Position numbers and translations under genes: made by a program. Below are positions 3,075-12,837 of a DNA stretch of 22,542 nt, piece after piece (within the stretch, counting starts at the first letter, position 1; every line of letters starts with the position of its first letter). The notes under the pieces were generated by a model. It worked only from the letters and a program-made list of their open reading frames with translations, did not search any database and was not told the DNA's origin. Source of the DNA: a virus; the IMG/VR virus record IMGVR_UViG_3300044984_002043, positions 1-22,542 of that record; one strand, given 5' to 3'.

Positions 3075-3284
3075 TTAAGCGGCATCCTTGAGGGGTGGCG
3101 CGCTGGTACCGAGCTTTTCGGCGTGCATGTCAATCAGTTGTTTGCCGATGCTGTAGGCTGGATTCTTGATTGCGCCGCGCCCGATCTCGCTGATTGTCGA
3201 TTGGCCGCACGCACAATGCGCCGCGATATCCTTTTGCGTAACGCCTGCGGCGGAAAGGTCGGAAATAAGTTTGATCCAGTTCAT
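3075..3284 (-). CDS. Cro/CI-family HTH repressor
   Basis: The 69-residue protein has a typical XRE helix-turn-helix at about residues 15-36 (GVTQKDIAAHCACGQSTISE, then IGRG). There is no C-terminal peptidase-like domain, so it resembles a Cro or a minimal repressor rather than full CI. ATG at 3284 was chosen because the frame upstream runs through the promoter. That ATG begins six bases after the -10 box TATTCT, which implies a leaderless mRNA, as known for lambda cI from PRM. It is transcribed away from the plus-strand early operon, with three operator-like sites in between. It probably represses its own promoter and the divergent early promoter. Confidence 0.8.
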   Translation of the reverse strand: MNWIKLISDLSAAGVTQKDIAAHCACGQSTISEIGRGAIKNPAYSIGKQLIDMHAEKLGTSAPPLKDAA

Positions 3285-3290
3285 AACGCC

Positions 3291-3319
3291 AGAATAGCGG
3301 AATACCGATATGCTGTCAA
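3291..3319 (-). promoter_or_regulatory. Leftward promoter of the repressor gene
   Basis: On the minus strand, TTGACA (3314-3319) and TATTCT (3291-3296) are separated by exactly 17 bases, close to the sigma-70 consensus. The spacer contains the CGGAATACCG operator core (3298-3307), so a bound repressor would block RNA polymerase. The predicted transcription start falls on or next to the ATG at 3284. Confidence 0.8.
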
Positions 3320-3375
3320 GCTGCAAACCGATATTATTTATCGGAATACCGCTTGACAATAGAAACGGAATACCG
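3298..3375. promoter_or_regulatory. Three identical repressor operator cores
   Basis: CGGAATACCG occurs exactly at 3298-3307, 3342-3351 and 3366-3375. Two copies extend to CGGAATACCGATA and the middle one is preceded by TAT, so the full site is probably a pseudo-palindrome TATCGG..CCGATA. A further inverted pair, CCGATA/TATCGG, spans 3328-3343. The outer two copies sit inside the -35/-10 spacers of the divergent promoters. This matches the tripartite operator design of lambdoid switches; the binding protein is inferred to be the adjacent repressor. Confidence 0.8.
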
Positions 3376-3380
3376 ATAAT
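3353..3380 (+). promoter_or_regulatory. Rightward early promoter
   Basis: A consensus -35 TTGACA (3353-3358) is followed after 16 bases by GATAAT (3375-3380), a five-of-six match to TATAAT. The third operator core (3366-3375) lies between the boxes. The first gene downstream starts at 3417 with GGAGG just upstream. This promoter probably drives the whole plus-strand early operon and may read into the cassette array. Confidence 0.8.
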
Positions 3381-3416
3381 GTGAGCCATCGAAACCAAAA
3401 ACCGATGGAGGCAACC

Positions 3417-3665
3417 ATGAGCAAGTACCAAGAAAGCGCTTACTGCCAGCACCCGAGTACGCAGGAAAAGTTCGACATAACAATATTCGGCAATGAAATT
3501 GATTTTAAGAATGACAGCCCGGCGCAAGTCTCTGCACAAATCTGGGCACCCGCTACCTCTATTCAGTTTGTTATGCGGCCATTGGACGCCCGTGCACTGG
3601 CGAATCACCTTATTGCTGCTGCCGATGCCGCCGAGCGCTATGAACCACTGAAAGCGGTGGCCTGA
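3417..3665 (+). CDS. First early-operon protein, unknown function
   Basis: The 82-residue protein starts at ATG 3417, six bases after GGAGG; an upstream in-frame start at 3381 lies inside the promoter and is rejected. Its first half alternates hydrophobic and polar residues (EKFDITIFGNEIDF), suggesting beta strands. Its end, ALANHLIAAADAAERYEPL, is a likely helix. It is the first gene behind the rightward early promoter, the position of Cro- or antitermination-type genes in lambdoids, but it has no helix-turn-helix. No family is recognised. Confidence 0.65.
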   Translation: MSKYQESAYCQHPSTQEKFDITIFGNEIDFKNDSPAQVSAQIWAPATSIQFVMRPLDARALANHLIAAADAAERYEPLKAVA

Positions 3666-6082: not shown

Positions 6083-6303
6083 GCGACATCCTGCAAACGC
6101 TCCGCAAAGGATCGTGCGGAATGATCTGCGAAGCGCAACACGCCGCCGATGAAATCGAATTCCTCAGATCCGAACTGATCAGAGCGGTGCGCGACATCAA
6201 CCGCATCGGCAACCATACCGCCTCGCCTGATCGCTGCGACATCTGCGATCTGGTGATGTCGTATGGCTTCGATCCGGAGGCATTGCGGGGCGATAGAGAA
6301 TGA
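6079..6303 (+). CDS. Small early protein with CxxC motif
   Basis: GTG at 6079 overlaps the previous stop (GTGA). The 74-residue protein has a likely helix (AQHAADEIEFLRSELIRAVR) followed by RCDICDLVMSYG, a single CxxC that could bind metal in a dimer. Its TGA overlaps the next ATG. Unknown family. Confidence 0.55.
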   Translation: MSDILQTLRKGSCGMICEAQHAADEIEFLRSELIRAVRDINRIGNHTASPDRCDICDLVMSYGFDPEALRGDRE

Positions 6304-6635
6304 TTAAAGCCGACACCATCTCAATCAACAAAATGCTCGGCGACATGCTTTGCCTGCCGAAAGACACTTATCGCGCAACGCTGGTCATGGAAGCGAATGA
6401 ACTCCCTAGGCTGACGATAGAGCGAGTGATTTTCAGATCCGGACAAGTCACCCCGCTTAATCCTGAATCGTTCCGCCTGGTGCCGGATAGGAGCCTGTAT
6501 CCATGTGAATACGCTGACCAGTGCAATGAAGACGGCCGCTGCGCCAATAGATGCGAGCGCACAAAAGTCGGCGATGGTGAGACTGCGCATAACGCAGAGC
6601 TAAGGGGCCGGCCGCTTGCGGACGGTCCCGCTTGA
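6300..6635 (+). CDS. Last early-operon gene before the array; 3' end runs into attC1
   Basis: ATG at 6300 overlaps the previous stop, so the 5' end belongs to the phage operon. The 111-residue frame has a Cys-rich segment near residues 68-84 (CEYADQCNEDGRCANRC). The last 16 residues are encoded by the attC1 site itself, ending at a TGA inside it. Either the native C-terminus was replaced when cassettes were joined here, or this gene is part of the first cassette. No family is recognised. Confidence 0.6.
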   Translation: MIKADTISINKMLGDMLCLPKDTYRATLVMEANELPRLTIERVIFRSGQVTPLNPESFRLVPDRSLYPCEYADQCNEDGRCANRCERTKVGDGETAHNAELRGRPLADGPA

Positions 6636-6649
6636 GCGCCGGGTTAAAC
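6587..6649 (+). repeat. attC1
   Basis: Left box GCATAAC (6587-6593) and right box GTTAAAC (6643-6649); the latter fits GTTRRRY exactly. The stem arms are AAGGGGCCGGCCG and CGGACGGTCCCGCTT. It overlaps the end of the 6300-6635 frame and marks the left visible edge of the array. Confidence 0.85.
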
Positions 6650-6674
6650 ATCAATGGTTGATCGGAGAAACGAC

Positions 6675-6911
6675 ATGGACGGAACAAGTGCAACAACTGG
6701 CGACATAAAGCCGGTGAGTCTGGAAACGCTGACGCGGGCAATGCAGGAGATTGATCTCCTGCCGAAGCCTGACCAGTGGATTGTGATTGACCCGCAGGGC
6801 CGGATGTACAAAGGCAAGGTCGAGGACGTGACGCGCGTGCTGCTGGCCGAACACCCGCTGTTGAAGATGCCGCCGATGTTTCCGTTCGAGCGCGGCGCAC
6901 TTGATGTTTAA
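6675..6911 (+). CDS. Cassette 1: hypothetical protein (78 aa)
   Basis: ATG 6675 has GGAG seven bases upstream; the longer in-frame start at 6654 has none. The stop TAA lies inside the left box of attC2 (GTTTAAC), as is usual for cassette genes. The protein is mixed alpha/beta (DQWIVIDPQGRMYKGKVEDV) with a Met/Pro-rich end. Unknown family. Confidence 0.65.
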   Translation: MDGTSATTGDIKPVSLETLTRAMQEIDLLPKPDQWIVIDPQGRMYKGKVEDVTRVLLAEHPLLKMPPMFPFERGALDV

Positions 6912-6969
6912 CGCTAGCAATGAGGGGCCGGCGCTTTAGCGACGGTCCCGCTCGATTAACTTGTTAGGG
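6906..6969 (+). repeat. attC2
   Basis: Left box GTTTAAC (6906-6912), right box GTTAGGG (6963-6969), with arms GAGGGGCCGGCGC and GCGACGGTCCCGCTC. The right box plus the next base gives AGGGG, which can serve as ribosome binding site for the next gene. Confidence 0.85.
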
Positions 6970-6974
6970 GCGGA

Positions 6975-7337
6975 ATGATGGAAGTGGCGTGCATTTTGGA
7001 ACAGGACACCTACAAGCCCGGCGACTTGCCGCCAGAGGGCTATTTGGCATGGCACGAATGGGCGGGGGGGCAGCGGAAGGCCGGCATAAAGCAGGTGCAG
7101 TGCGGACGCTGCGGACTATGGAAAACGCCACAGGAACTGAGCGGGGATATTGACCGCTGCGAAATGCAGAGCCGCAAAGGGCAGGTAGTTGTTGAAACGC
7201 CTGTGTGCACCAAGTGCGCAGCCCCTAACGCCGAATTGAGGGGCGCGAGCCGGCTTCATGGCGAAGCGTCCCTCTCGAATGACGTGTTGGGGGTCGCCGT
7301 ACCGCCAGCGCCGACTTTTGAAAGGATGAGGACATGA
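6975..7337 (+). CDS. Cassette 2: zinc-ribbon-like hypothetical protein, reads through attC3
   Basis: ATG 6975 (or 6978) follows AGGGG in the attC2 right box. The first 85 residues contain CGRCG and, about 40 residues on, CTKC: a plausible zinc ribbon similar to small HNH-like or zinc-finger phage proteins. The frame does not stop at the attC3 left box but continues through the whole site and the next cassette's leader, ending with AVPPAPTFERMRT. Its TGA overlaps the ATG of cassette 3 (ATGA). The last 35 or so residues are thus recombination-site and leader sequence. Confidence 0.6.
   Translation: MMEVACILEQDTYKPGDLPPEGYLAWHEWAGGQRKAGIKQVQCGRCGLWKTPQELSGDIDRCEMQSRKGQVVVETPVCTKCAAPNAELRGASRLHGEASLSNDVLGVAVPPAPTFERMRT
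7223..7292 (+). repeat. attC3
   Basis: Left box CCCTAAC (7223-7229), right box GTTGGGG (7286-7292). The arms AATTGAGGGGCGC and GCGTCCCTCTCGAAT flank a short stem with CCGGCTTCATGG. It is translated as part of the cassette 2 frame. Confidence 0.85.
7296..7319 (+). repeat. Shared cassette leader copy encoding VPPAPTF
   Basis: These 24 bases right after attC3 match the coding strand of the phage gene at 2664-2687 (minus) with one mismatch. Related leaders follow attC8 (9658 on) and attC9 (10494 on). Here the frame reads AVPPAPTFERMRT and stops by ATGA overlap with the next gene. Confidence 0.7.
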
Positions 7338-7627
7338 ACGTAAGACAAGTGCTACTGGATGCAGGGCTGAATGTGTTTGGCGCGGACCTTCTGGCTGAGT
7401 CATTCCTGAAAAGCCCGATTGCAAAGCAGGCGCTCGAAAAAGGCGATCCGGTTCGGTTCTTTCTCCCGGTGAGGCGCTCCGACTGCGCGGAGTTTGTCGG
7501 GGTTGAAATCTCCATTGCGGCCGTGCCCGTTGAAGTGACGGCCAACGTCGTAGCTGAGGGGCCGCCCGGCGGCGAAGCCGACGGGGAACCTGCAAGCGCA
7601 GCTTGCAGGCGGTCCCCTCGAGCGTAG
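7334..7627 (+). CDS. Cassette 3: hypothetical protein, tail encoded by attC4
   Basis: ATG 7334 overlaps the stop of the read-through frame of cassette 2. The protein part proper, about 70 residues, includes MNVRQVLLDAGLNVFGADLL and a beta-rich stretch (FVGVEISIAAVPVEV). The remaining 27 or so residues are attC4 sequence, ending at a TAG just before its right box. The pattern 'F.PVRRSDCAEFVGVEI' is not one I can name. Confidence 0.6.
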   Translation: MNVRQVLLDAGLNVFGADLLAESFLKSPIAKQALEKGDPVRFFLPVRRSDCAEFVGVEISIAAVPVEVTANVVAEGPPGGEADGEPASAACRRSPRA

Positions 7628-7635
7628 GGTTGGGC
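7540..7635 (+). repeat. attC4 (long, 96 bases)
   Basis: Left box GGCCAAC (7540-7546) and right box GTTGGGC (7629-7635), the latter a perfect GTTRRRY. Outer arms are GCTGAGGGGCC and GGTCCCCTCGAGC. A long extra stem with CCTGCAAGC/GCTTGCAGG in the centre explains its size. Confidence 0.8.
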
Positions 7636-7648
7636 AACATGTTTTGGC

Positions 7649-8047
7649 TCACAGTTTCCCTGCTGTTCTTTCTTGCAGTTGCCGGAGAAATACTTTGCCG
7701 AGGAGGCGATTTGCGGTGCGGGCAACGATTGCTAGCGCTGACGCGATGGCTATTGAAACTGCCACGCCGTGCAACTGCTCTTGCACGACGACTTGGGAAA
7801 GGAAGGAAGGAAAGGCCTTGACGGCAAACTGCACCATGAACGATAGCAACAAGAGAAACGCACCGACGATGAAGTCTGACTTTTGCAGCAGCATCTCTTC
7901 GGCGATGGCCTGTCCCTTGCCCCACATTTTGGTTGCGATCTCTTCGGCGCGGCCAGGGTTCAAATGGAGAATGCCAATGCAAAAGAACAGGGCGCTAAAG
8001 AGGCCAAGGCATGAAGCAGCAAGGTCGAGAATGGCGGCAAGGCTCAT
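7649..8047 (-). CDS. Cassette 4: membrane protein on the opposite strand
   Basis: The minus-strand frame gives a 132-residue protein with three hydrophobic segments: residues 5-28 (LDLAASCLGLFSALFFCIGI), about 58-78 (FIVGAFLLLLSFMVQFAV), and about 96-110 (VAVSIAIASALAIVA). ATG at 8047 is preferred to the TTG nine bases upstream. The plus-strand frame over the same bases has no such pattern. The gene begins next to attC5 and ends near the right box of attC4, so it fills the cassette in reverse. No family is recognised. Reversed genes occur in a minority of known cassettes and need their own promoter. Confidence 0.65.
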   Translation of the reverse strand: MSLAAILDLAASCLGLFSALFFCIGILHLNPGRAEEIATKMWGKGQAIAEEMLLQKSDFIVGAFLLLLSFMVQFAVKAFPSFLSQVVVQEQLHGVAVSIAIASALAIVARTANRLLGKVFLRQLQERTAGKL

Positions 8048-8050
8048 GGT

Positions 8051-8120
8051 GCCCAACGCCTGAATTCAGGGGCGATGCGCGGCTTTATCGCGCAGCGTCC
8101 CCTGGAATGACGGGTTAGCC
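8051..8120 (+). repeat. attC5, near-identical to attC10
   Basis: Left box GCCCAAC (8051-8057), right box GTTAGCC (8114-8120). The internal 62 bases (8055-8116) are identical to those at 11301-11362. The arms GAATTCAGGGGCG and CGTCCCCTGGAATGA give a textbook attC hairpin with extra-helical bases. Confidence 0.9.
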
Positions 8121-8161
8121 GCCACCCGTGGAAGAGCGGAAATACTGAAAAGGAAACAACA

Positions 8162-8524
8162 ATGCGTGAACTGAACGAACACAAGATCAACCCCGGCAAT
8201 GACACGCTGACCATTACCGTGCTGGACGAGCCGGGCCACGGCGGAGCGAACCACGCCTACGACATTGAAGGAGGCGAGGCGGTGCCAACACACCTGCGTT
8301 TTCAAAACGGCCCGATCAACTCGGACGGGAACGGCGTAAATGGCATTACTCATGAGGCGTTGCTTGCGGTGCTGTGTGACCGCTTGCGCGGGTTTCAGGC
8401 TGGGCCATATGCCTGCAAGGCGAACGCCTGCGCACTGACGCACCTTGAAGAAGCGCAGCACTGGCTGCAACAGCGCACCATCGAACGTATGCGGCGCGGC
8501 GTCGAAGGAACGCACACGGTTTAA
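8162..8524 (+). CDS. Cassette 5: putative Acb2/Tad1-like cyclic-nucleotide sponge
   Basis: The 120-residue protein starts at ATG 8162 after AAGGA. Its first 60 residues are beta-rich (LTITVLDEPGHGGANHAYDI; LRFQNGPI). Then comes VNGITHEALLAVLCDRL, GFQAGPYAC and NACALTHLEEAQHWL, ending RTIERMRRGVEGTH. The C-terminal helical pair and the RGVEGTH end belong to a widespread small phage protein family. From memory I relate it to the Acb2/Tad1 proteins, which bind CBASS or Thoeris signalling nucleotides and so block host defence. That assignment is an inference; the safe statement is a conserved phage protein carried as a cassette. Confidence 0.5.
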   Translation: MRELNEHKINPGNDTLTITVLDEPGHGGANHAYDIEGGEAVPTHLRFQNGPINSDGNGVNGITHEALLAVLCDRLRGFQAGPYACKANACALTHLEEAQHWLQQRTIERMRRGVEGTHTV

Positions 8525-8554
8525 TTTTGTGGGCCGCTGGCGCGTGCTAGTGGT

Positions 8555-8610
8555 GGCTAACGCAGAAATAAGGGGCGGCGAAGCCGTCCCGCTTGATTGA
8601 CGGGTTATGC
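8555..8610 (+). repeat. attC6 (shortest, 56 bases)
   Basis: Left box GGCTAAC (8555-8561), right box GTTATGC (8604-8610). Arms ATAAGGGGCGGC and GCCGTCCCGCTTGAT with a tight GCGAAGC turn. The same GTTATGC half site recurs at the scar at 9770. Confidence 0.85.
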
Positions 8611-8630
8611 GATTTTCAAAGGAGATGAAC

Positions 8631-8714
8631 ATGCACGGTTTTCCAATTTGGGTTGAGTATTGGCCTCTGATGCTTGGGGCGGCTGGCCAAGTTGTTTGGG
8701 TGTTTGCGAGATGA
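8631..8714 (+). CDS. Cassette 6: 27-residue hydrophobic peptide
   Basis: ATG 8631 follows AAGGAGATGAAC, a strong ribosome binding site. The peptide (MHGFPIWVEYWP, then LMLGAAGQVVWVF, then AR) is Trp-rich and could span a membrane once. Its TGA overlaps the next ATG (ATGATAG), so the second gene is probably translated by coupling. It could instead be a leader peptide for that gene. Confidence 0.5.
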   Translation: MHGFPIWVEYWPLMLGAAGQVVWVFAR

Positions 8715-9004
8715 TAGATACACCGATACGCATCCGATTACGCGAGCAGGTTGCTTTGCGCGGCAAATCCTCACCATTTGGCGAGATTGCGCACCTTGCG
8801 CTGCAAGAGATCGACCGACAGCACGCAGAGATTATTGATCTTCGCGGCGGGTTAGAGCACACGAACATCAAGCTGCGGGAAGCGTTGCGGGCTGCTCAAA
8901 AAGTCGGCGATAGCGGAACGGCGACCTTGGGGCATAACGCAAAAAGTGAGCCGCCTGCGCCGCTTTTGGCGCAGGTCGGCTCGACTGACGGGTTGGAGGT
9001 CTGA
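8711..9004 (+). CDS. Cassette 6: coiled-coil hypothetical protein, reads through attC7
   Basis: ATG 8711 overlaps the stop of the 27-residue frame; a longer frame starting at 8660 crosses that peptide and is rejected. The 97-residue product has a long charged helix (LALQEIDRQHAEIIDLRGGL, then LREALRAAQKV). Its last 20 or so residues come from attC7, ending two bases before the next gene. Similar short helical proteins are common in phage accessory regions. Confidence 0.6.
   Translation: MIDTPIRIRLREQVALRGKSSPFGEIAHLALQEIDRQHAEIIDLRGGLEHTNIKLREALRAAQKVGDSGTATLGHNAKSEPPAPLLAQVGSTDGLEV
8932..8998 (+). repeat. attC7
   Basis: Left box GCATAAC (8932-8938), right box GTTGGAG (8992-8998), central stem CCTGCGCC/GGCGCAGG. 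The right box plus one base gives GGAGG, six bases before the GTG start of the next cassette gene, so the recombination site doubles as ribosome binding site. Confidence 0.85.
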
Positions 9005-9005
9005 C

Positions 9006-9602
9006 GTGAGAAAGACGACATACGAGCGCCACATTACAGACACGGCGCCACCAAAAAAAGGACTTGGCTGCGAAGGCGCCCAATTAACAAAAATACGCGC
9101 AGGGATGCTCGGGTTTGTTTGCGAAGTATGCGGCCTTCCATTTGAACGGCGCGCAGCAAAAGTGAAACGGCAAAACACGACATTTTGCAGCAAAGCCTGT
9201 TACTACCAATCGATGCGTATTGTTGTAGAAAAGACATGTGTCATTTGCGGGGAAATGATGTCTGGGACTCCTTCGCAAATGAAAGCGAAAAGCGCATGCA
9301 GCCCAGAATGCTCTTTGCGTTGGCGGATAAAGCGCGGTAAGAAAGGACAAATTAACCCTGGCGCGTTTGCAATTTACAGGCACAGAGCCAATGAAATAAA
9401 AGCAAAAGGGGTTTGCGAAAAATGCGGAGTGAAAAACGGCCCCTGGGTCGTGCGCGAACTGACGCTCGTCTTACCAGACACCGGCATGCCGTATTTAATC
9501 GAAGACGATGTGGCGCTTTGGTGCAAACACTGCCATCTTGAAGATTCCGCACCGCTTGGCCCACCAGCACGCAAGTGGCGGCCACAGACCTCCAACGCCT
9601 AG
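9006..9602 (+). CDS. Cassette 7: multi-zinc-ribbon, HNH-like protein
   Basis: GTG 9006 is chosen because GGAGG lies six bases upstream; the open frame extends back into attC7. The 198-residue protein carries several Cys pairs: CEVCG...CSKAC, CVICG...CSPEC, and CEKCG...WCKHCHLED. The last pair has the spacing and CxxCH end of HNH endonucleases, but the two central His of the catalytic strand pair are not evident. It may therefore be a non-catalytic zinc protein or a degenerate HNH. The DNA is richer in A than its neighbours. The stop TAG lies just after the attC8 left box. Confidence 0.6.
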   Translation: MRKTTYERHITDTAPPKKGLGCEGAQLTKIRAGMLGFVCEVCGLPFERRAAKVKRQNTTFCSKACYYQSMRIVVEKTCVICGEMMSGTPSQMKAKSACSPECSLRWRIKRGKKGQINPGAFAIYRHRANEIKAKGVCEKCGVKNGPWVVRELTLVLPDTGMPYLIEDDVALWCKHCHLEDSAPLGPPARKWRPQTSNA

Positions 9603-9657
9603 CTAACCGGCGCAGGCGGCCTTATCGCCTGCGTCCGTGTTGAGCGACGTGTTATAC
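9590..9657 (+). repeat. attC8
   Basis: Left box CTCCAAC (9590-9596), right box GTTATAC (9651-9657), central stem CGCAGGCG/CGCCTGCG with loop GCCTTAT. An alternative left box AGCTAAC at 9601 gives poorer pairing with the right arm (TTGAGCGACGTGTT). Confidence 0.8.
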
Positions 9658-9770
9658 GGCGTACCGCCAGCACCGACTTTTGAGGAAACAAGATGATTGA
9701 ACTAGACAAGATTCACTGTGGCGATAACTGCGACTTGCTCGGGCAACTGCCGCGCGAGTGCATTGACCTG
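9658..9770 (+). repeat. Partial direct repeat of the methyltransferase cassette start (copy 1)
   Basis: These 113 bases match 10494-10606 with about 12 differences. They include the leader GGCGTACCGCC...CCGACTTTTGAGGA and the first 26 codons of a methyltransferase. Similarity stops abruptly at 9770, where an attC-like half site GTTATGC begins. Confidence 0.8.
9693..9770 (+). pseudogene. Truncated methyltransferase 5' fragment
   Basis: The frame reads MIELDKIHCGDNCDLLGQLP and on to CIDL, the N-terminus of the methyltransferase encoded intact at 10529. It lacks everything from the catalytic TSPPY motif on. The break coincides with G/TTATGC (9770-9776). The frame happens to run on into the RNA ligase gene, which would give a 246-residue fusion, but the ligase has its own start and ribosome binding site. 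Confidence 0.75.
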
Positions 9771-9800
9771 TTATGCAGAAAACTTTTACGGAGAAAGCAA

Positions 9801-10433
9801 ATGACTGAATACCACAAAATCCAAAGTATTTTCAAGCGAGACATGACCAGCAAGCGCAAGACCCTGATTGAAGGCGAATGGACGCTGCCAGAGTTTGAAT
9901 ACTTGGCTGGCAACGCATGGACTTTCACCGAGAAGGTGGACGGCACAAACATCCGTGTGATCTTCAAGGATGGCGGCGTTACGTTTGGTGGCCGCACCGA
10001 GGACGCGCAGATACCTGCAAAGCTGGTAGAGCGCCTAAACGAGCGATTCTTGCCGATGGCCGCGAAGCTGGGCGAGGTGTTTGCCGACGGATCGGCTGTG
10101 CTGTACGGAGAGGGATACGGGGCAAAGATTCAGAAGGGCGGCGGCAACTACCGCGCCGATCAAGACTTTGTTTTGTTTGATGTGCGAGTTGGCCCGTGGT
10201 GGCTGCAACGCGCTGACGTTGAAGACGTGGCGCAGAAGCTGGGCATTGATGTTGTGCCGGTGATTGGCGAAGGCACTTTGCACGACGCGGTAGCTTGGGC
10301 CAAGCGTGGCATTCGCTCGAAATGGGGCGACTTCGAGGCCGAGGGCATCGTTGCGCGGCCAAAGACCGAACTAAACACACGCGCCGGTCATCGACTGGTG
10401 GCAAAGATCAAGTGCCGAGACTTTGCGGCATAA
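9801..10433 (+). CDS. Cassette 8: RNA ligase (nucleotidyltransferase family)
   Basis: The 210-residue protein has the ordered motifs of covalent nucleotidyltransferases: motif I EKVDGTN with nucleophile Lys45, motif III LYGEGYG at 101-107, motif IV EAEGIV at 179-184 and motif V VAKIKC at 200-205. This matches small RNA ligases that seal RNA nicks through an AMP-lysine intermediate. ATG 9801 has GGAGA six bases upstream. The stop TAA lies inside the attC9 left box. Phage RNA ligases are known to repair tRNAs cut by host anticodon nucleases, so counter-defence is a plausible role. Confidence 0.8.
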   Translation: MTEYHKIQSIFKRDMTSKRKTLIEGEWTLPEFEYLAGNAWTFTEKVDGTNIRVIFKDGGVTFGGRTEDAQIPAKLVERLNERFLPMAAKLGEVFADGSAVLYGEGYGAKIQKGGGNYRADQDFVLFDVRVGPWWLQRADVEDVAQKLGIDVVPVIGEGTLHDAVAWAKRGIRSKWGDFEAEGIVARPKTELNTRAGHRLVAKIKCRDFAA

Positions 10434-10493
10434 CGCAACAGGTAACGTGCGTGCCGGCATTATCGGCACGTCCCGTTGACCGACGGGTTAGGC
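10428..10493 (+). repeat. attC9
   Basis: Left box GCATAAC (10428-10434), right box GTTAGGC (10487-10493), an exact GTTRRRY. The central stem GTGCCG/CGGCAC has loop GCATTAT. The usual L-box run of G is weaker here than in attC1-6. Confidence 0.85.
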
Positions 10494-10606
10494 GGCGTAC
10501 CGCCATAGCCGACTTTTGAGGAAACAAGATGCTTGAACTAGACAAGATTTACTGTGGCGACAACTGCGATCTGCTCGGGCAACTGCCTAGGGAGTGCATT
10601 GACTTG
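10494..10606 (+). repeat. Direct repeat of methyltransferase cassette start (copy 2, intact)
   Basis: This is the counterpart of 9658-9770 at an offset of 836 bases, with about 89 percent identity by eye. Here it continues into the complete gene. The leader's VPPAPTFE frame is broken by a TAG at 10507. Confidence 0.8.
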
Positions 10607-11302
10607 GTGGTGACAAGCCCGCCATACGATGACCTGCGCACCTACGGCGGACACTCTTGGGATTTCTTCGGCGTGGCGTGGCAACTGAAGCGCGTGCTGA
10701 AGCCGGGCGGTGTGATTGTTTGGGTGGTGGCTGACGCCACAAAGGACGGCAGCGAGACGGGCACAATCATGGAGCAGGCGCTGCACTTTAAGCGGCTGGG
10801 CCTGAACTTGCACGACACGATGATTTACGCGAGCGACAAGCCGCCGCTGACGCACAACAGGTACGAGCAGGCTTGGGAGTTTGCTTTTGTCTTGAGCGCC
10901 GGAAGGCCGAGCCGGTGGACACCGTTGAAGCGCGAAACGCTGCACGGCGGTAAAGGCCGGAGCGGGACATTTATGCACTCGGCCGGAGCCGACTACAAGC
11001 CGGCCAACACGCGGACGCCGGTAGCCGACGAGGCGCTGCGGCAAAACATTTGGTGGTACGCGACAGGCAACGAAAAGCAAGGACACCCGGCTCCGTTCCC
11101 GCTTGCGATGGCGGTTGATTACATCTCGACATGGAGCAACCCTGGCGACTTGGTTTTAGACCCGTTCAGCGGCAGCGGCACGACGGCAAAAGCAGCGAAG
11201 GAATTGGGGCGCAGGTTTTTGGGATTGGAAATCAACCAGGAATACTGCGCGATTGCAGAGCGGCGGATAGCCCAGCAGGTGCTGGAACTTGAAGCCGTAT
11301 AA
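10529..11302 (+). CDS. Cassette 9: TSPPY-type DNA methyltransferase
   Basis: The 257-residue protein has the catalytic motif IV TSPPYDDLR at 29-37 near the N-terminus and the S-adenosylmethionine motif I DPFSGSGTT at 211-219 near the C-terminus, the order of beta-class amino-methyltransferases. TSPPY is typical of N4-cytosine enzymes, though N6-adenine is possible. GAGGA lies six bases before ATG 10529. The stop is in the attC10 left box. No restriction enzyme gene is adjacent, so it is an orphan enzyme, most plausibly protecting phage DNA from host restriction. Confidence 0.85.
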   Translation: MLELDKIYCGDNCDLLGQLPRECIDLVVTSPPYDDLRTYGGHSWDFFGVAWQLKRVLKPGGVIVWVVADATKDGSETGTIMEQALHFKRLGLNLHDTMIYASDKPPLTHNRYEQAWEFAFVLSAGRPSRWTPLKRETLHGGKGRSGTFMHSAGADYKPANTRTPVADEALRQNIWWYATGNEKQGHPAPFPLAMAVDYISTWSNPGDLVLDPFSGSGTTAKAAKELGRRFLGLEINQEYCAIAERRIAQQVLELEAV

Positions 11303-11366
11303 CGCCTGAATTCAGGGGCGATGCGCGGCTTTATCGCGCAGCGTCCCCTGGAATGACGGGTTCGAC
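11297..11366 (+). repeat. attC10, near-identical to attC5
   Basis: Left box GTATAAC (11297-11303), right box GTTCGAC (11360-11366). The 62 bases from AACGCC to GACGGGTT are identical to attC5. It is the last complete attC in the window. Confidence 0.9.
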
Positions 11367-11388: not shown

Positions 11389-11652
11389 ATGGCAATAACT
11401 GATGCGCAAGTGGATGAAATGGTGAGGAAGCTGCGGATCGCCTTTGGCGTGGAAACGACTGACGATCTGGTGAAGGAAATGGTGAACCGCTTCCTCGGCT
11501 GGAAACTGCCGAAGGACTTTGCCCCGGACGCTGGGGTTTCGTTTAATCCTCCGGTTAATCCCGAATGGTGGCCGATTGGCACAAACCTGTTTCACGATGG
11601 GCAAGCCAAAGAAATGGTGAGGCACATGCTCGGGGTGTCGAACGCAATATAG
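11389..11652 (+). CDS. Cassette 10-like gene: conserved phage protein (87 aa)
   Basis: ATG 11389 follows AAGGAG. The protein reads MVRKLRIAFGVETTDDLVKE in its first half and FAPDAGVSFNPPVNPEWWPI then GTNLFHDGQAKEMV in the second. The 'KDFAPD.GI.F.PP......WP.GTNLL...QA' pattern is common among small phage accessory proteins of unknown function. It follows attC10, but no full attC closes it; a lone ACCCAAC half site at 11674 may be the remnant. It may be the last, truncated cassette or a native phage gene. Confidence 0.65.
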   Translation: MAITDAQVDEMVRKLRIAFGVETTDDLVKEMVNRFLGWKLPKDFAPDAGVSFNPPVNPEWWPIGTNLFHDGQAKEMVRHMLGVSNAI

Positions 11653-11690: not shown

Positions 11691-11900
11691 ATGCACACAA
11701 TGTTCCTCACCCGCGCCGACCTGACTGAGCTTACCGGATACCAGCGCCCTGCCGCGATGATGCGCTGGCTGACGCAGTATGGGTATCCGTATGCCGTCGG
11801 GTCAGACGGCTGGCCGAGGGTGATGGTGGACGCGGTTCGTGCTAGGCTGATCGGCTTGCAGTCCATCCAGAAACCCGAGCCGAGGTTGCGCCTTGCGTAA
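11691..11900 (+). CDS. Excisionase-like DUF4224 protein
   Basis: The 69-residue protein has the DUF4224 signature: MFLTRADLTELTGYQRPAAM then RWLTQYGYPYAVGSDGWPRV. These small winged-helix proteins usually precede a tyrosine integrase and are thought to act as its excisionase or directionality factor. AAGG lies just upstream of ATG 11691; ATG 11700 is an alternative. Its stop overlaps the integrase start by eight bases. Confidence 0.8.
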   Translation: MHTMFLTRADLTELTGYQRPAAMMRWLTQYGYPYAVGSDGWPRVMVDAVRARLIGLQSIQKPEPRLRLA

Positions 11901-12837
11901 ATTGCCCGTCAGGATGTATCTGAAATCCGGCCGCTACTACTACGTCCACCAAAACAAGTGGAAGTCGCTGTCGAAAGATTACCGCGAAGCGCTGATCGAA
12001 TACGCCGCGTTGATGGCCGATCCGCTCAGTGGCGGCATGACCGAACTGCTCGACAACTGGCTGGCCGATTGCCAGGTCAAGGCCTCGACGCGCATTACCT
12101 ACCAATCCGCCATCGAATCGAAGATCAAGCCGGCATTCGTTGAGTTTCACCCGTCGCAAGTCACCGCGCCAGTGATCGCGCAGTTCCTCGATCACCACAA
12201 AGCGCACCCAAACATGGCCAACATCATGCGCACCATCCTCAAGATGGTATTCGACCGCGCCGTGCTGTTCGGGCTGGCGCAGTCCAACCCCGTCACCAGC
12301 GTCCCGAAGTTCAAGGAACGCAAGCGCACCCGCTACATGACCGACGCCGAATTCCACGCGATCCGCGATCAGGCCGAGCCGATCCTGCAATCGATCATGG
12401 ATATTTGCTACTACACCGGCCAGCGCATCAGTGACGTGCTGAAAATCCAGATGGCCGACATCACCGGCGACACGCTTTACATCAAGCAGGAAAAAACCGG
12501 CAAGGAACTGAATATCACCATCACGCATGAGCTGCGCAGCGCCATCGAGGCCGTCAAGCCGGGGAATATTCGCGGGCAGTTTCCGTTGTTCGGCCGGCGC
12601 GTCAGATACGCCCGCGCGCGCGCCTGGTTCGTCAAGGCGGCGCAGGATGCCGGCATCGCCGACGTGCGCCTGCATGACCTCAGATCGAAGTCGATCACCG
12701 AAGCCGAAAAGCAGGGCATCGACGGCCAAACCCTCGCCGGCCACACCGACCGCAAGATGACCGAGCGCTACATCCGCGACCGTGAATTACCCGTCGCCAC
12801 CCCGCCAAAAATGGCGAAGAAAAAGGCAACTTCTTAG
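11893..12837 (+). CDS. int: Phage tyrosine integrase
   Basis: The 314-residue protein has the tyrosine-recombinase residues Arg178 (TGQRISD), Lys201, His261-x-x-Arg264 (HDLRSK), His284 (GHTDRK) and nucleophile Tyr293 (TERYIRD). The N-terminus has an AP2-like strand set (MYLKSGRYYYVHQNKWKSLS) and a SAM-like core-binding domain at about 50-140. TTG 11893 is taken as start because MRKLP is the usual beginning of this family. It lacks the extra helix region diagnostic of integron integrases, so it should integrate the phage rather than move the cassettes. The stop lies inside the terminator hairpin. Confidence 0.9.
   Translation: MRKLPVRMYLKSGRYYYVHQNKWKSLSKDYREALIEYAALMADPLSGGMTELLDNWLADCQVKASTRITYQSAIESKIKPAFVEFHPSQVTAPVIAQFLDHHKAHPNMANIMRTILKMVFDRAVLFGLAQSNPVTSVPKFKERKRTRYMTDAEFHAIRDQAEPILQSIMDICYYTGQRISDVLKIQMADITGDTLYIKQEKTGKELNITITHELRSAIEAVKPGNIRGQFPLFGRRVRYARARAWFVKAAQDAGIADVRLHDLRSKSITEAEKQGIDGQTLAGHTDRKMTERYIRDRELPVATPPKMAKKKATS

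Follow-up and report, generated by a model that had tools for sequence, protein, structure and literature searches.

A 22,542-nt virus contig from IMG/VR (record IMGVR_UViG_3300044984_002043, positions 1 to 22,542; hereafter the window), a fragment of a lambda-like temperate phage genome, appears to carry an integron platform without its integrase gene intI. It comprises an attI-type site and ten gene cassettes with ten attC sites, located where the rightward early operon reaches its 3′ end, immediately ahead of xis and int. We assign a probability of just under 0.8 to this reading, in which a host integron integrase (IntI) would act on the cassettes in trans and phage early read-through would transcribe them. 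What the sequence itself shows are the attC and attI sites, cassettes with complementary ends, genes of antisense polarity, and cassettes common to unrelated phage and bacterial contigs.

attC sites, attI and integrase

A covariance model built from 28 attC sites of IntI-linked bacterial loci (Methylotenera, Methylococcaceae, Thiobacillus and Sulfuricella) and class 1 integrons, with none taken from the window, recovered exactly ten sites between 6587 and 11366, all on the minus strand, at 39.8–65.4 bits (E 3e-8 to 1e-14), the next best hit reaching 11.3 bits. Applied to 20 related phage loci that have no array, the same model returned no site; in 15 loci of array-bearing phage contigs it returned 108. 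A separate attC scanner scored the ten sites at 21–26, and nothing in 593 kb of Markov-shuffled sequence reached 18. An initial annotation, made from the letters of the window, had proposed ten attC-type sites in one orientation and named covariance scoring and bottom-strand folding as checks; the independent model bears out both number and common orientation, no site lies at background, and the window plus strand displays the extrahelical-base pattern of the aadA1 bottom strand. R and L boxes, a folded bottom strand and extrahelical bases, the hallmarks of attC, are all present. attC5 shares 82–84% identity across 50 nt with the attC site of blaOXA-2, a class 1 cassette, and had no match among named phages. 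An attC 83% identical to attC5 also occurs on the Thauera plasmid pTha01 (L182, 9001–9065), beside a sense HNH endonuclease gene and near a tyrosine recombinase. Within the window, the cores of attC5 (8055–8116) and attC10 (11301–11362) are identical over 62 nt despite different R boxes, suggesting that attC cores are exchangeable without their boxes.

Beyond attC10, the next segment ends in GTCGAAC-N6-TAG in place of an attC; on the minus strand this reads CTA-N6-GTTCGAC. This attI-closed segment is also a cassette, so the "at least nine" cassettes that the initial annotation had placed, correctly, between early operon and xis/int become ten. Scored with a matrix from five chromosomal IntI-linked attI sites, the closing site ranked first of the 542 GTTs in the window at 8.8 bits, and only 0.02% of GTTs on other phage contigs reach 8 bits or more. 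Across 30 viral candidate array ends, a set that includes some undetected attC sites, CTA stands exactly nine bases ahead of GTT in 14, with every other distance occurring at most twice. In chromosomes of Methylotenera, Methylococcaceae, Thiobacillus and Sulfuricella, intI has the same layout next to it, as in AGGGTGTCTACTTTAC-GTTAGAC; a truncated attC was dropped as an explanation of the right end because CTA-N6-GTT recurs beside chromosomal intI, which marks it as attI. As expected with attI at the right end, the 1.5 kb upstream of the left edge contained no partner for the outer R box of attC1. Two other viral contigs, G014 (locus L062) and G025 (loci L070 and L071), carry two arrays each, both closed by the same ~30-nt attI string with differing R boxes. 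Paired divergent arrays directed outward occur in G025, G012 and G016, those of G025 diverging from a central region.

No intI was found in the 22.5 kb window, where the phage int scores only 21.9 bits against TIGR02249 (cut-off 265). One of the 30 other viral records (G006, which also encodes a VapE-type primase and RusA) exceeds that cut-off, as do most bacterial genomes with such sites. On this phage-like G006 contig, the IntI gene lies directly downstream of an antisense array and attI (L089, 6645–7661). In a Thiobacillus bin, an array, intI and a phage-type integrase gene adjoin one another in that order (L158, 4613–6677).

Polarity, boundaries and cargo of the cassettes

Three features escaped the initial annotation: an attI that closes the array, genes running antisense to their attC, and counter-defence cargo. 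Aligning the attC of aadA1 or of blaOXA-2 to the window plus strand puts the resistance gene on the minus strand and intI1 on the plus strand. Together with the asymmetry of the extrahelical bases, these controls place the canonical attC strand on minus, correcting the strand first proposed; most window genes lie on plus and are therefore antisense to their attC, running toward attI and codirectional with the phage early operon. A plus-strand assignment, suggested by the gene-then-attC layout, was overturned by the same controls. Taking the longest open reading frame (ORF) of each cassette, unweighted, phage arrays from IMG/VR yielded 59 antisense, 17 sense and 51 ambiguous cassettes, compared with 1, 26 and 13 in intI-linked chromosomal arrays (59:17 versus 1:26, Fisher p 5e-12). 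Of the methyltransferase, Mom, Tad1 and RNA ligase genes that homology or family searches located no more than 700 nt from an attC, 19 of 19 are antisense; these homology-identified genes thus depart from the sense-oriented, Pc-read cassette genes that define a complete integron. Stretches with this attC type numbered 31 in viral and 16 in genomic collections, a comparison confounded by habitat, and several of the "bacterial" contigs are small fragments of metagenome-assembled genomes that may themselves be phage.

This polarity bears on an unlikely alternative, in which a piece of a host chromosomal integron was acquired once, by illegitimate recombination or transduction, and persists as a dead cluster of attC sites lacking an integron integrase (CALIN). 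Such capture has a precedent in Vibrio anguillarum phages (PMC9892861). It would also fit the missing intI and the near-identity of some cassettes to bacterial contigs, as in the 94% segment shared by B051, a Propionivibrio bin, and the viral contig G020. However, IntI-linked chromosomal arrays are sense in 26 of 27 cassettes and phage arrays antisense in 59 of 76, attI-ended arrays occur on many unrelated phage contigs, and one phage has two arrays sharing the same attI. In lambda-like phages, moreover, the attachment end is distal to int. The array sits away from that end, between early genes and xis, and specialised transduction was rejected on this ground.

Because integron cuts fall within the R box, the boxes at the two ends of a cassette are complementary to each other. 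Perfectly complementary end boxes are present in 7 of the 10 window cassettes and in 87 of 121 across all viral arrays (permutations average 8.2 and reach at most 18), which indicates cuts inside the R box, the G/TT mark of integron recombination. Segments shared between contigs tend to stop at the same points: a 923-nt segment common to G006 and G010 (90%) and another common to G013 and G020 (78%) end at cuts, and the Propionivibrio segment has one end at a cut. The window Tad1 protein has 97.5% identical counterparts in G026 and G006, the window methyltransferase recurs in G029, and the RNA ligase is found at 75% in L043. Shared cassettes and cut-aligned ends support site-specific cassette exchange, undated and not placed in this particular phage. 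The single-gene exchange envisaged by the initial annotation thereby gains indirect backing, since unrelated contigs share single cassettes that end at R boxes.

Could the attC repeats instead serve as mere homology for phage recombinases that shuffle accessory genes with no IntI involved? Phages readily recombine at short homologies, the attC5 and attC10 cores are identical, and the 5′ end of the methyltransferase gene is duplicated (9639–9770 and 10475–10606). Yet complementary end boxes at the frequency seen require cuts within the R box, shared segments stop at the cut, and homologous exchange leaves the conserved attI unexplained, making this account quite improbable.

The duplication belongs to a composite cassette (9596–11302), in which attC8 and a methyltransferase 5′ fragment are joined, exactly at a G/TTATGC box, to the RNA ligase cassette, the outer boxes GTTATAC and GTATAAC pairing across both parts. 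The composite looks like a cassette inserted at a non-classical site within the gene of another. Three small contigs binned as Planctomycetota, Dependentiae and Omnitrophota (L039, L042 and L043) contain mainly antisense cassettes, some of them common to phage contigs, and are probably misbinned phage DNA.

Among 116 viral cassette proteins, the recognisable ones are mostly DNA methyltransferases (about 13), 2–3 Mom proteins, Tad1/Acb2 and RNA ligase, and the majority have no assigned function. Judged by homology, the recognisable cargo is largely counter-defence, represented in the window by Tad1, a DNA methyltransferase and RNA ligase. The window Tad1 is homologous to the Tad1 and Acb2 cyclic-nucleotide sponges but is borne on an integron cassette; it would be predicted to bind signalling cyclic nucleotides.

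Proposed exchange and relation to known integrons

One flank of the array consists of repressor and replication genes; the other has xis, int, endolysin, tail fibre J and tape measure genes. Misassembly of a chromosomal integron fragment into a virus contig is very improbable: IMG/VR holds false positives and no phage hallmark gene lies within the array, but phage genes adjoin it on both sides of the same contig, terminase is present on ten other contigs with such attC sites, and the array-then-int layout is seen again in G030 and G031 (and in G004, if circular).

In the platform reading that we prefer, an IntI from a betaproteobacterial host or a co-resident element, acting in trans, would bring cassettes into the phage attI and remove them by excision between attC sites. 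The cassettes would be transcribed through phage early read-through, not from the integron Pc promoter; such read-through would favour cassettes whose genes face attI and could thereby sort out a pool of phage polarity. Counter-defence genes (Tad1, DNA methyltransferases, Mom-like modification, RNA ligase) would be the cargo under selection, and phages would trade anti-defence genes as modules. Betaproteobacterial or methylotroph hosts are suggested by the attI family; most bacterial contigs that share the attC pattern come from such organisms. At even odds, we extend this to a group of betaproteobacterial phages that would keep intI-less attI platforms and borrow host IntI, trading counter-defence genes from a separate cassette pool that is reversed relative to attC and unread by Pc.

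Several observations weigh against this interpretation. The window is a 22.5 kb fragment, as are most of its relatives, which makes the absence of intI provisional. Mobilisation by a host IntI is inferred from cassette boundaries. No near-identical pair of sibling phages with different arrays was found, including by a search with the exact attI string, and the exact attI strings of the window, G025 and G014 had no match in other IMG/VR contigs. ORF comparison gives no clear polarity for 51 of 127 viral cassettes, and the relatives were fetched with a pattern modelled on the window sites, giving a biased sample.

Cassette arrays in phages have been described. Qi et al. (2023) reported CALINs and integrons in phage genomes, mostly without intI and with methyltransferase cargo, and found that IntI1 recombined 5 of 6 tested phage attC sites with attI1 and that a cryptic Shewanella prophage array has its own attI (PMC9892861). 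The window, with at least two attC sites in a phage genome and no intI found, falls under their definition of a phage CALIN, and the "undescribed system" of the initial annotation was too strong a term. Resemblance to those arrays extends to cassettes delimited by attC, the usual lack of intI and methyltransferase cargo. The one array that we checked, that of virulent phage TJE1, has its methylase gene in a sense cassette, whereas the window genes are mostly antisense; the window also differs in having ten attC sites with an attI, in a layout seen again on many contigs.

Chromosomal integrons of Methylotenera, Thiobacillus, Sulfuricella and Methylococcaceae share the attC family and attI consensus of the window, but there intI adjoins attI and cassettes are sense. 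Class 1 cassettes (aadA1, blaOXA-2) fold with the same extrahelical-base pattern but carry sense, Pc-read antibiotic resistance genes. Treponema integrons, with their atypical intI direction (PMC3607928), likewise depart from the usual relation of integrase, array and gene direction; their intI faces the cassettes, while in the window the genes are antisense to attC and no intI was found. We found no report of antisense phage-cassette polarity or of recurrent intI-less attI platforms in the open-access literature, and these two features appear to be new.

Integrons are known as gene-collecting tools of bacteria; the phages described here appear to retain the docking site and the cassettes, to omit the enzyme, and to stock the array with means of countering host defences. 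If host IntI does move the cassettes, phages could swap counter-defence genes singly under host stress, and one machinery could serve both sides of the arms race. Antisense polarity offers a simple sequence signature that separates phage from host cassettes and helps to find further arrays, and the unassigned cassette genes form a shortlist of candidate anti-defence genes. The polarity also touches the question of how cassettes originate, for a gene must have joined its attC in reverse.

Features of the window and its phage relatives

Features of the array and adjoining phage genes, in window coordinates
Feature	Position	Strand	Basis
Repressor gene	3075–3608	-	PHROGs
Promoter-like site TTGACA-16-GATAAT, rightward early operon	3353–3380	+	11/12 consensus positions; adjoins repressor gene
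Resident phage ORF, final codons enter attC1 (left array edge)	6300–6635	+	ORF list
attC1	6587–6649	-	53.4 bits, covariance model
Cassette gene without assigned function, antisense to its attC	6654–6911	+	longest ORF in cassette
attC2	6906–6969	-	42.9 bits, covariance model
Possible cassette ORF without assigned function, crosses attC3; orientation ambiguous	6975–7337	+	ORF list
attC3	7223–7292	-	56.5 bits, covariance model
Cassette ORF without assigned function, ending inside attC4	7334–7627	+	ORF list
attC4	7540–7635	-	39.8 bits, covariance model
Probable small membrane protein, sense to attC; ambiguous by automatic ORF comparison	7649–8056	-	hydrophobic stretches in translation
attC5	8051–8120	-	65.4 bits, covariance model
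Tad1 (Thoeris anti-defence 1) homologue, antisense to its attC	8162–8524	+	phmmer to 8kbg/7uav E 8e-18, residues 17–119; phrog_2428 E 9e-33
attC6	8555–8610	-	58.4 bits, covariance model
attC7	8932–8998	-	59.5 bits, covariance model
Zinc-finger / HNH-endonuclease-like protein	9009–9602	+	phrog_1271 E 1e-11
attC8	9590–9657	-	45.7 bits, covariance model
RNA ligase cassette gene, in-frame fusion to 5′ methyltransferase gene fragment	9693–10433	+	Pfam RNA_ligase E 2e-21
attC9	10428–10493	-	42.6 bits, covariance model
N4/N6 DNA methyltransferase	10529–11302	+	Pfam N6_N4_Mtase E 2e-36
attC10	11297–11366	-	58.8 bits, covariance model
attI-proximal cassette gene	11389–11652	+	family adjoins attC sites in G006, G010, G016
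attI-type site with R box GTTCGAC directly after CTATATTGC; cut inferred at 11642/11643	11637–11652	-	chromosomal attI matrix
Excisionase (xis)	11691–11900	+	phrog_4764 E 3e-16
Phage tyrosine integrase, not integron integrase	11893–12837	+	phrog_1 E 6e-49

Promoter-like sites in the region are no more numerous than in shuffled sequence, and terminator-like sites show no excess over shuffles. A megablast against named phages and a search against Rfam returned no match, and the replication protein gave no relative among viral contigs. Relatives of the integrase (~41% identity) lack attC sites and also lack an unoccupied attI ahead of xis. A 4.4 kb IMG/VR contig (L096), 99–100% identical to the lysis and tail genes of the window, represents the same phage population and ends before int and the array.

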